Shown: positions 29,812-61,361 of the stretch, piece by piece | How positions within the stretch are numbered: the stretch's first letter is position 1 | Layout: every line of letters starts with the position of its first letter | Source of the DNA: Thermopolyspora flexuosa | Lineage (GTDB): Bacteria > Actinomycetota > Actinomycetes > Streptosporangiales > Streptosporangiaceae | NCBI RefSeq assembly: GCF_006716785.1 | Contig: NZ_VFPQ01000001.1 | Coordinates: forward strand, 2,418,001-2,482,000 | Length of the DNA: 64,000 nucleotides | Direction: 5' to 3' | Translations under genes and position numbers: made by a program | Notes under the pieces: generated by a model | What the model was told of the DNA's origin: nothing | Seen by the model: the letters and a program-made list of their open reading frames with translations, nothing else | The model's database searches: none

Positions 29812-30801
29812 GTGCTGAAGGACTCGTTCGGCCGGGTGGCGACTGATCTGCGCGTCTCGCTGACGGACCGGTGCAACCTGCGCTGCACGTACTGCATGCC
29901 GCCGGAGGGCCTGGAGTGGCTGCCCAAGCCCGAGCTGCTCACCGCCGACGAGATCGTGCGGCTGGTGCGGATCGGGGTGGAGCGGCTCGGCATCACCGAG
30001 GTGCGGTACACCGGCGGGGAGCCGCTGCTGCGCCGCGAGCTCGTGGACATCGTGGCGCGCACCGCGGCGCTCACCCCGCGGCCGCAGATCTCACTCACCA
30101 CCAACGGCATCGGGCTCGACCGGCTCGCCGCCCCGCTCGCCGCCGCCGGGCTGGACCGGGTCAACGTCTCGCTCGACACCCTCGACCGCGACGTGTTCGC
30201 CCGCCTCGCCCACCGCGACCGGCTCGACGACGTGCTCGCCGGGCTGAAGGCCGCCCGCGACGCCGGGCTCACCCCGGTGAAGGTGAACGCGGTGCTGATG
30301 CGCGGCATCAACGACCACGAGGCCGCCGACCTGCTCGCGTTCTGCATGGACAACGGCTACCAGGCGCGGTTCATCGAGCAGATGCCGCTTGACGCCCAGC
30401 ACGGCTGGCGGCGCGAGAACATGGTCACCGCCGACGAGATCCTCCGCATGCTCGGCGAGCGCTTCAGCCTCGAGCCCGCCGACCCCAATGAGCGGGGCAG
30501 CGCCCCGGCCGAGCTCTTCCTCGTCAACGGCGGCCCGCACACCGTCGGGGTGATCGGCTCGGTGACCCGGCCGTTCTGCGGCGCCTGCGACCGGGTACGG
30601 CTCACCGCCGACGGCCAGGTCCGCAACTGCCTGTTCGCCCGCGAGGAGACCGACCTGCGCACGGCGCTGCGCTCGGGCGCCTCGGACGACGAGATCGTCG
30701 AGCTGTGGCAGGCAGCGGTGCGCGGCAAGCGCGCCGGCCACGGCATCGACGACCCGTCGTTCCTGCAGCCCGCCCGCCCCATGTCGGCGATCGGCGGCTG
30801 A
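29812..30801 (+). CDS. moaA: GTP 3',8-cyclase, molybdenum cofactor biosynthesis
   Basis: 329-aa radical SAM enzyme that turns GTP into 3',8-cyclo-GTP, first step of molybdopterin synthesis. N-terminal cluster cysteines C21, C25 and C28 in TDRCNLRCTYCMP; the C-terminal [4Fe-4S] site is FCGACDRVRLTADGQVRNCLF. TNGIGL, SLDTLDRDVF and RFIEQMPLD are also typical. The protein ends in a GG-containing tail (SAIGG), as MoaA proteins do. GTG start with GGAGGG. The cofactor is required by the nitrate reductase encoded at 47083. Confidence 0.95.
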   Translation: MLKDSFGRVATDLRVSLTDRCNLRCTYCMPPEGLEWLPKPELLTADEIVRLVRIGVERLGITEVRYTGGEPLLRRELVDIVARTAALTPRPQISLTTNGIGLDRLAAPLAAAGLDRVNVSLDTLDRDVFARLAHRDRLDDVLAGLKAARDAGLTPVKVNAVLMRGINDHEAADLLAFCMDNGYQARFIEQMPLDAQHGWRRENMVTADEILRMLGERFSLEPADPNERGSAPAELFLVNGGPHTVGVIGSVTRPFCGACDRVRLTADGQVRNCLFAREETDLRTALRSGASDDEIVELWQAAVRGKRAGHGIDDPSFLQPARPMSAIGG

Positions 30802-32325: not shown

Positions 32326-32447
32326 GCGAAAACGAAAGGCGGCGCCGGGTGGTTACGGGGGCAAACCACCCGGCGCCGCATCATCGGTGTTCCGACGGGG
32401 GCCCGGAACACCGGCACCAGCGCTCCGACGGGGGACCAGAGCGCTTG
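32326..32447 (-). ncRNA. Candidate small RNA with three C-rich-loop hairpins
   Basis: Three perfect stems follow one another: 32419-32425/32439-32445 (7 bp), 32385-32394/32404-32413 (10 bp) and 32339-32354/32364-32379 (16 bp). Read on the minus strand, each loop carries the same word CCCCCGT (loops TGGTCCCCCGTCG, GGCCCCCGT, TGCCCCCGT). The last, longest stem is followed on the minus strand by CTTTCGTTTTCG, a terminator-like tail, and a promoter-like pair lies just upstream at 32453-32484. The actinobacterial 6C RNA family also displays C-rich hairpin loops; membership is possible but I cannot confirm it. Alternatively these are tandem terminators of the DUF3099 gene. Confidence 0.5.
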
Positions 32448-32452
32448 GCTAA

Positions 32453-32484
32453 ACTGTACACCTCTTACCCATGGGTTGCGTCAA
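32453..32484 (-). promoter_or_regulatory. Promoter-like sequence for the candidate sRNA
   Basis: Minus strand: TTGACG (32484-32479), an 18-base spacer, then TGTACA (32460-32455); TACAGT two bases further is another -10 candidate. The predicted start would be a few bases before the first hairpin. Confidence 0.45.
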
Positions 32485-32491
32485 GACTTAG

Positions 32492-32815
32492 TCACGACCC
32501 GATCTCGCGTCGGTGGCGTGGTATCTCGTTTTGGTTAGTCTCCGCCTTATCAAAAGCCGTAAGACGGGACTCTCTCCCCTCCTCGCGTCCAGCGTTCGCC
32601 CCGACCACGGCAAAGTACGGCAAAAAAACCGCGCCGGCGACGAAGAGCGCCCTGATGGGCCAGGGGGCGTCGACGAGGACGGCGAGGATGAGGCAGATGG
32701 TGCGGATGCCCATCTGGATGAGGTATCGCTTCTCTCTCCGCCCGATGTCCTCCGACAGGGAGGGTTTGGCGTCCGTGATCTCGTGGACGACCCGGCGGCC
32801 ACGCCATGCCTTCAC
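32492..32815 (-). CDS. DUF3099 domain membrane protein
   Basis: 107-aa protein with two membrane helices (MGIRTICLILAVLVDAPWPIRALFVAGAVFLPYFAVVGANAG), preceded by VVHEITDAKPSLSEDIGRREKRYL, the typical DUF3099 entry block widespread in actinomycetes. Function unknown. The GTG at 32815 fits the family's usual N-terminus; in-frame starts at 32881 and 32902 would add a stretch without similarity. The C-terminal 25 residues are polar with AT-richer codons than usual here. Divergent from the dodecin gene. Confidence 0.75.
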   Translation of the reverse strand: MKAWRGRRVVHEITDAKPSLSEDIGRREKRYLIQMGIRTICLILAVLVDAPWPIRALFVAGAVFLPYFAVVGANAGREEGRESRLTAFDKAETNQNEIPRHRREIGS

Positions 32816-32913
32816 CCTTCCACCGTAAACCTCTGGCGCGGTGCTCGTTTCGCGTCCCTCCCCGGTCAGGGGCCCTGGCATACGATCCCGGCGGGGGAGC
32901 AAGGGAGGGCCCG

Positions 32914-33126
32914 ATGACAGACCGCACCTACCGCGTCACCGAGATCGTCGGCACGTCGCCGGAGAGCGTGGACCAGGCCATCCGCAACGGCATCCGCCGC
33001 GCGGCGCAGACCCTGCGCCACCTCGACTGGTTCGAGGTCACCGAGATCCGCGGCCAGCTCGCCGACGGCCAGGTCGCGCACATCCAGGTCGGTCTGAAGG
33101 TCGGTTTCCGGCTCGAGGACGCCTGA
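32914..33126 (+). CDS. Dodecin (flavin-binding protein)
   Basis: 70-aa protein of the dodecin family, which forms hollow dodecamers storing flavins. The fold blocks are complete: YRVTEIVGTSPESVDQAIRNGIRRAAQTLRHLDWFEVTEIRGQLADGQVAHIQVGLKVGFRLED. The conserved tryptophan (HLDWFEV) that stacks on flavin is present. AGGGAGG upstream of the ATG. Single-gene unit divergent from DUF3099. Confidence 0.93.
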   Translation: MTDRTYRVTEIVGTSPESVDQAIRNGIRRAAQTLRHLDWFEVTEIRGQLADGQVAHIQVGLKVGFRLEDA

Positions 33127-60586: not shown

Positions 60587-60713
60587 CCGGCGTGCCCGGG
60601 CCACCCGGACCGGACAAGGCCGCCAAGCCCGGACGAAGGCGGCATGGCAGAATCACGGGGGGCGCCGTCGCGGGTGCGCCCGCACGAGAGCGAACCTGTA
60701 CGGGGGTGGTGGG

Positions 60714-61361
60714 GTGGAGGCGGTCCTGTTCGACATGGACGGCCTGCTCATCGATTCCGAGCAGCTCTGGTACGAGGTGGAGACCGAGGTCGCAGAGCGG
60801 CTCGGCGGCACCTGGGGGAGGGCGCACCAGAAGCGGCTCGTGGGCGGCTCGATGCGCTCCACGGTGAGCTACATCCTCGAGGTGACCGGGGCGGACGTCG
60901 CCCCCGAGGTGGTCGCGGGCTGGATGCTCGAGGGCATGCGGTCCCGGCTCGCCGAGGGGATCGAGCTCATGCCCGGCGCCGACGAGCTGCTCACCGAGGT
61001 GCGTGCGGCGGGCCTGCGCACCGGGCTGGTCACCTCCTCCGGCCGGGTGCTCGCCGACGCGGTGCTCGGCGTGGTGGGCGCCGACCGGTTCGACGTGGTG
61101 GTCACCGGGGACGACGTCACCCGGCACAAGCCCGACCCCGAGCCGTACCTGCGGGCGGCGCGGCTGCTGGGCCTGCCGCCCGGGCGCTGCGTGGCGCTGG
61201 AGGACTCGCCGAACGGGGTCGCCGCGGCGACCGCCGCGGGCTGCCGCGTGGTGGCCGTGCCGAGCGTGCTGCCGGTCGAGGAGGCGCCGGGCCGCCTCGT
61301 CGTCGGCTCCCTCAAGGAGCTCTCCGTGTACCGGCTGCGCGGCCTGTTCCCCGAACCCTGA
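60714..61361 (+). CDS. HAD family phosphatase (beta-phosphoglucomutase-like)
   Basis: 215-aa haloacid-dehalogenase phosphatase. Motif I DMDGLLIDSE with the nucleophile aspartate, motif II TSSGR, motif III lysine in RHKPDPEPYL, motif IV LEDSPNGVAAATAAG. The helical cap lies between motifs I and II, as in beta-phosphoglucomutase and 2-deoxyglucose-6-phosphatase-like enzymes. The substrate is unknown. A GTG start is used. It follows metH by 169 bases beyond the terminator. Confidence 0.85.
   Translation: MEAVLFDMDGLLIDSEQLWYEVETEVAERLGGTWGRAHQKRLVGGSMRSTVSYILEVTGADVAPEVVAGWMLEGMRSRLAEGIELMPGADELLTEVRAAGLRTGLVTSSGRVLADAVLGVVGADRFDVVVTGDDVTRHKPDPEPYLRAARLLGLPPGRCVALEDSPNGVAAATAAGCRVVAVPSVLPVEEAPGRLVVGSLKELSVYRLRGLFPEP

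Follow-up and report, generated by a model that had tools for sequence, protein, structure and literature searches.

Small RNAs (sRNAs) that display C-rich loops on hairpins have been described in several groups of bacteria. The 6C RNA (6C/B11, RF01066) is a short actinobacterial RNA with rigid hairpins and C-rich loops, and it is defined by two stem-loops, each with at least six cytosines (quoted in PMC8388888). The loops of the mycobacterial 6C/B11 pair with G-tracts at ribosome-binding sites, and either loop suffices (PMC10470900). The repression of eccB4 by Mycobacterium abscessus B11 is lost when both loops are mutated and returns with compensatory changes (PMC10470900).

Xanthomonas sX13 is an RNA of ~115 nt with three stable stems and three apical C-rich loops (PMC3771888). 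It represses mRNAs that have G-runs near the start codon, and this repression is Hfq-independent (PMC3771888). Two Streptomyces sRNAs, scr5583 and scr1434, are conserved and strongly expressed, and each of them has one C-rich loop (PMC3765725). Tandem hairpins with C-rich loops also occur in the alphaproteobacterial ar7 (RF02342) and in ncS035 of Burkholderia (RF02870).

The current work deals with a locus in a 64 kb stretch of actinobacterial DNA, called “the window” in this text (i.e., the whole stretch that was analyzed). The locus almost certainly encodes a real, conserved actinobacterial sRNA gene that is outside Rfam. Comparison of sequences was sufficient to establish the gene with its structure, strand, promoter, loop invariance and distribution. 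Since its three hairpins have the same run of five cytosines, the RNA probably silences mRNAs having matching G-runs.

Structure of the predicted RNA

The features of the locus are collected in Table 1. The start of the transcript was placed by inference 6–8 nt past the -10 box.

Table 1. Features of the sRNA locus and its conserved neighbors (window coordinates)
Feature	Positions	Strand	Basis or details
Dodecin gene, divergent from DUF3099 (start provisional)	32896..33126	+	PF07311, E = 7e-28; synteny
DUF3099 protein gene (start provisional)	32492..32902	-	PF11298, E = 5e-25
Conserved element before -35 (GAGATC..TCGTgAc..gTC)	32485..32506	-	Column conservation
-35 box TTGACG (TCTTGAC conserved)	32479..32484	-	TTGAC then GTGTA in 138/143 copies
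-10 region GTG-TANNNT (GTGTACAGT)	32453..32461	-	Column identity across copies
Predicted sRNA transcript, ~119 nt	32328..32446	-	Promoter spacing and terminator position; unit conserved
Hairpin 1, 10 bp (two pairs U-G or G-U near the loop), loop UCCCCCG at 32429-32435	32419..32445	-	
Hairpin 2, 11 bp, loop GCCCCCG at 32396-32402	32385..32413	-	
Hairpin 3 / terminator, 16 bp, loop UGCCCCCGU at 32355-32363	32339..32379	-	
U-rich tail CUUUCGUUUUC	32328..32338	-	
moaA, convergent conserved neighbor	29812..30801	+	PF04055 and PF06463; synteny

The initial annotation had proposed three minus-strand hairpins of 7, 10 and 16 bp, each with the word CCCCCGT in its loop. All three were located, with the words at 32428-32434, 32395-32401 and 32355-32361, and the stretch folds strongly (-77 kcal/mol, z = -7.0), better than any of 200 shuffles. 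The proposed stem lengths are correct for perfect pairs and become 10, 11 and 16 bp when G-U pairs are counted. As for the loops, CCCCCG lies wholly inside all three of them (exactly five C, then G), but the T of CCCCCGT, which hairpin 3 has in its loop, is able to close the loops of hairpins 1 and 2 as a G-U pair. The U-rich tail that had been described after the last stem is present, but the sequence past hairpin 3, CUUUCGUUUU, is only moderately U-rich; across copies the 12 nt after this hairpin usually include 4–6 T. Hairpin 3 is the only one of the three with such a tail. In the whole window CCCCCGT occurs 11 times versus 27 expected by chance; being rarer than chance and yet present three times within 80 nt, the word is not a part of the background here.

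Conservation in relatives

Using blastn, we found the sRNA stretch in 40 of 60 relatives. Long matches were obtained in 34 of the 36 same-family genomes (G001–G036) and in one genome of the same order. One of the two remaining same-family genomes, G011 (99% complete), has neither a blastn nor a covariance-model match, and the other has a weak covariance-model match only. No further copies were found in a search of the genome from which the window is taken.

Alignment A1 includes 30 sequences that were chosen by blastn and not by loop words. All three CCCCCG words are invariant in 30/30 sequences. Standard pairs make up 98.1% of the stem cells, both partners are altered in 14 of 39 pairs, and none of the shuffled or slid controls reaches similar values. 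The 37 core pairs comprise 992 Watson-Crick, 111 G-U and no A-C cells. A G-U pair on the minus strand is an A-C mismatch on the other strand, so this bias indicates selection on a minus-strand RNA. The loops of hairpins 1 and 2 have a near-constant size of 7 nt. The loop-to-loop distances differ by single bases among copies, which argues against a coding region. Lack of conservation of the stems and loops in relatives had been named beforehand as an observation that would refute the sRNA; the candidate withstood this test, as the loops are invariant, the stems covary, the promoter is invariant and the locus is conserved.

Promoter and genomic context

To examine the flanks we used 143 distinct three-hairpin copies; they had been picked by the loop pattern and were therefore used for flanks only. 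Of these, 138 have TTGAC together with GTGTANNNT, 136 of them at identical spacing, and thus the pattern TTGAC-N18-GTGTANNNT is invariant in ~96% of copies. GTGTA and the final T of the -10 region are identical in all 138 copies having the TTGAC box. Based on these columns, the -10 element is TANNNT after GTG, 20 nt from the -35 hexamer; in the window copy the hexamer is TACAGT (32458-32453, minus strand). The promoter-like pair TTGACG...TGTACA suggested initially is thus there and conserved, and its -35 part stands, but TGTACA should be replaced with the above invariant -10 element. A MerR-like dyad in the 20-nt promoter spacer was unconvincing (mean 4.6 matches vs 4.0 in shuffles).

The promoter lies directly behind the stop codon of the DUF3099 gene on the minus strand; the earlier naming of this gene was borne out by Pfam (Table 1). 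Here the conserved element before the -35 box also serves as the last codons of DUF3099, but where DUF3099 stops further upstream it is retained as non-coding DNA. In the presumed Streptomyces loci (L193, L194, L198–L200) a conserved direct repeat, AAGCTCA-N-AAGCTCAGATCAAT, is found ~80–110 nt before hairpin A, upstream of the sRNA promoter; it is a possible activator site.

The conserved order of the locus is dodecin / DUF3099, then the sRNA, then moaA. In the window other genes, one of them cyclase-like, are located between the sRNA and moaA; in some families the end of moaA is 10–50 nt away. In several families the interval between the sRNA and moaA encodes a small protein that is conserved (PICSAKGC..., without a Pfam family), e.g., at 1682-1915 of L199.

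Distribution and modular composition

Among the matches listed in a scan of named genomes there are 80 loci, all from Streptosporangiales or actinobacterial MAGs. The genera among these matches include Nonomuraea, Actinomadura, Nocardiopsis, Streptosporangium, Microbispora, Planobispora, Actinoallomurus, Thermomonospora and others, all of which we take to belong to Streptosporangiales. The covariance model R1 was run over 395 genomes of the class. It scored above 100 bits in every same-family genome among the matches listed and gave weaker matches in about ten other families. Most of the weaker matches are real homologues with two hairpins, CCCCCGU loops and the same locus; three (L204, L205 and L213) lack either the loops or the locus and were rejected as spurious.

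The two-hairpin form is thus found outside Streptosporangiales, and its largest family (f20) is very probably Streptomyces. In the alignment of this form (A2) 14 of 22 pairs are altered on both sides, i.e., covariation is strong; matches of a second covariance model are confined to the class. Of all parts of the sRNA family, the terminator hairpin and its CCCCCGU loop are conserved most deeply, and the C-run of the first hairpin is lost in some families (L208, L210). In the three-hairpin form the consensus sequences of hairpins 1 and 2 are identical at 21 of 25 positions, which points to tandem duplication of one module.

The most unexpected observation of the analysis concerns family f16 (L332–L342), in which DUF3099 was not detected. 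Its first hairpin is replaced by another one, ~31 nt ahead of the terminator hairpin, and 9 of 11 sequences display CGGGGG there, which is complementary to the terminator loop CCCCCG. This suggests that CCCCCG:CGGGGG pairing itself is used, possibly within one molecule. A tentative reading, which we consider possible but rather doubtful, is a modular antisense RNA family that evolves through gain or loss of identical C-loop modules: a constant terminator loop is combined with zero, one or two further C-loop modules, and one actinobacterial family swaps a module for CGGGGG. If this modular reading is true, the RNA could close on itself by loop-loop kissing, which would serve as a built-in switch or as a self-titrating seed.

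Search for targets

We counted words at positions -30 to -2 of 801 predicted genes in 1.26 Mb of the genome. GGGGG is present in 10% of these initiation regions vs 2–3% inside genes, and CGGGGG in 4.6% vs 1–2%; ordinary Shine-Dalgarno purines partly account for these G-runs. The abundance of G-rich sites at starts that had been supposed is therefore real in terms of G-runs, but the exact complement ACGGGGG has no special enrichment in initiation regions (rank 28 of 42 words of the same composition).

The search for targets revealed no conserved target among the neighboring genes, where the G-run is not conserved, or in the best candidate of the window. This candidate is a HAD-type gene (GTG at 60714) whose leader has two ACGGGGG words 45 nt apart (60655-60706, plus strand). 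It was rejected: the nearer word is kept in the same genus only, and the farther one in the window genome only.

Relation to known RNAs and alternative explanations

No family of Rfam 15 matches the window or the homologues at gathering thresholds, and relaxed thresholds give nothing credible. The best look-alikes of the window sRNA are ar7 (20.9 vs a cut-off of 60) and ncS035 (18.2 vs 79), and it is a member of neither. A search against RF01066 in particular had been advised, and this family is absent for the window up to E = 10. A divergent paralogue within the 6C family could nevertheless account for two-hairpin homologues with C-rich loops, one of which, the presumed Streptomyces homologue, reaches 27.6 bits against RF01066. 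This is below the gathering cut-off of 47 bits. Moreover, 6C has a gene of its own in this genome (61 bits; C1:4816009-4816085; L001 1501-1577), which is unlinked to the sRNA at C1:2450324 and not orthologous to it, and a separate 6C gene over the cut-off is also present in 7 of 13 other genomes checked. Instead of two stem-loops with six or more cytosines, the window sRNA has three hairpins with five C and a G. Membership in 6C is thus already disfavored, with a small chance of being right, and the contrast with the usual two hairpins of 6C that was drawn initially is upheld. With no Rfam match and a separate canonical 6C gene in the genome, we assign the sRNA to another family, one that probably acts in the manner of 6C or sX13. 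The hairpins might also be nothing but a strong terminator array, serving DUF3099 or shared with the convergent moaA, with no regulatory RNA involved; tandem DUF3099 terminators were the fallback reading of the initial annotation. Their position directly behind DUF3099, the tail of the last hairpin and the proximity of moaA in some families fit this. Terminators, however, need no invariant loops, no repeated loop word and no invariant promoter in front, and tandem intrinsic terminators are not what is found here, as loops and promoter are invariant and two of the three hairpins have no U-rich tail. The G-U bias towards one strand (111 vs 0) also means that the array was not selected as a moaA terminator. 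Leaving the identical loops and the conserved promoter unexplained, a mere array is very unlikely.

Two other explanations accept the RNA and differ in what its loops bind. The loops could be decoys, i.e., identical CCCCCG heptaloop sites sequestering a protein or another G-rich RNA, in the way that CsrB sequesters through its GGA loops. Repeated binding sites would explain equally well the two or three identical words on rigid stems, the duplicated module and the near-constant 7-nt loops of hairpins 1 and 2. On the other hand, we know of no actinobacterial protein that binds CCCCCG loops, the complement-carrying variant of f16 better matches base pairing, and the closest studied analogues (6C/B11, sX13) act on mRNAs; a decoy is rather improbable. 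Finally, the loops could act on the ribosome, given that 12 nt of hairpin 2 are perfectly antisense to the universally conserved segment GACGGGGGCCCG of 16S rRNA (L227 position 2406). But this complementarity is broken in 3 of the 30 copies of A1, the extra Gs are stem bases, and the 16S segment is buried in the mature 30S subunit. We consider action on the ribosome hardly credible, and the complementarity is probably due to chance.

Discussion

We favor a trans-acting mechanism in which the C-rich loops repress several mRNAs by pairing with G-runs close to their start codons, and estimate its probability at about two in three. The estimate is not higher because ACGGGGG is not enriched, Shine-Dalgarno purines contribute to the G-runs and two tests of targets failed. 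According to this mechanism, a stand-alone gene would be transcribed from a promoter of its own directly behind DUF3099 up to an intrinsic terminator that also belongs to it, giving an RNA of ~119 nt. The RNA would fold into three rigid stems, each displaying single-stranded (U/G)CCCCCG. The loops would act in trans as redundant antisense seeds for CGGGGG-like runs near start codons, and their pairing would block translation, as for mycobacterial 6C/B11 and Xanthomonas sX13. By analogy with these RNAs, pairing with G-rich ribosome-binding sites is plausible. The predicted RNA shares with the class of trans-acting sRNAs with C-rich loops its stable stems, C-runs in apical loops and conservation of the loops.

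In architecture the predicted RNA is nearly the same as sX13. However, sX13 is proteobacterial, its loops have 4, 4 and 5 C, and there is no sign of common descent; in the window sRNA the loops share one longer word and one hairpin is duplicated. The Streptomyces scr5583 and scr1434, which were compared by description, are named after other loci and have a single C-rich loop each. A limited literature search on DUF3099, scr182x and moaA-linked sRNAs in Streptomyces, which covered the article texts, yielded no description of the sRNA.

Thus, we have apparently found an undescribed, deeply conserved sRNA family across Streptosporangiales, including Nonomuraea, Actinomadura, Nocardiopsis, Microbispora and others. 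A two-hairpin form extends it to a large family, probably Streptomyces, and to other actinobacteria. Few sRNAs are understood in such antibiotic-producing bacteria. The fixed DUF3099 locus, the invariant promoter and the graded number of modules make the mechanism and the regulon of this RNA directly testable.
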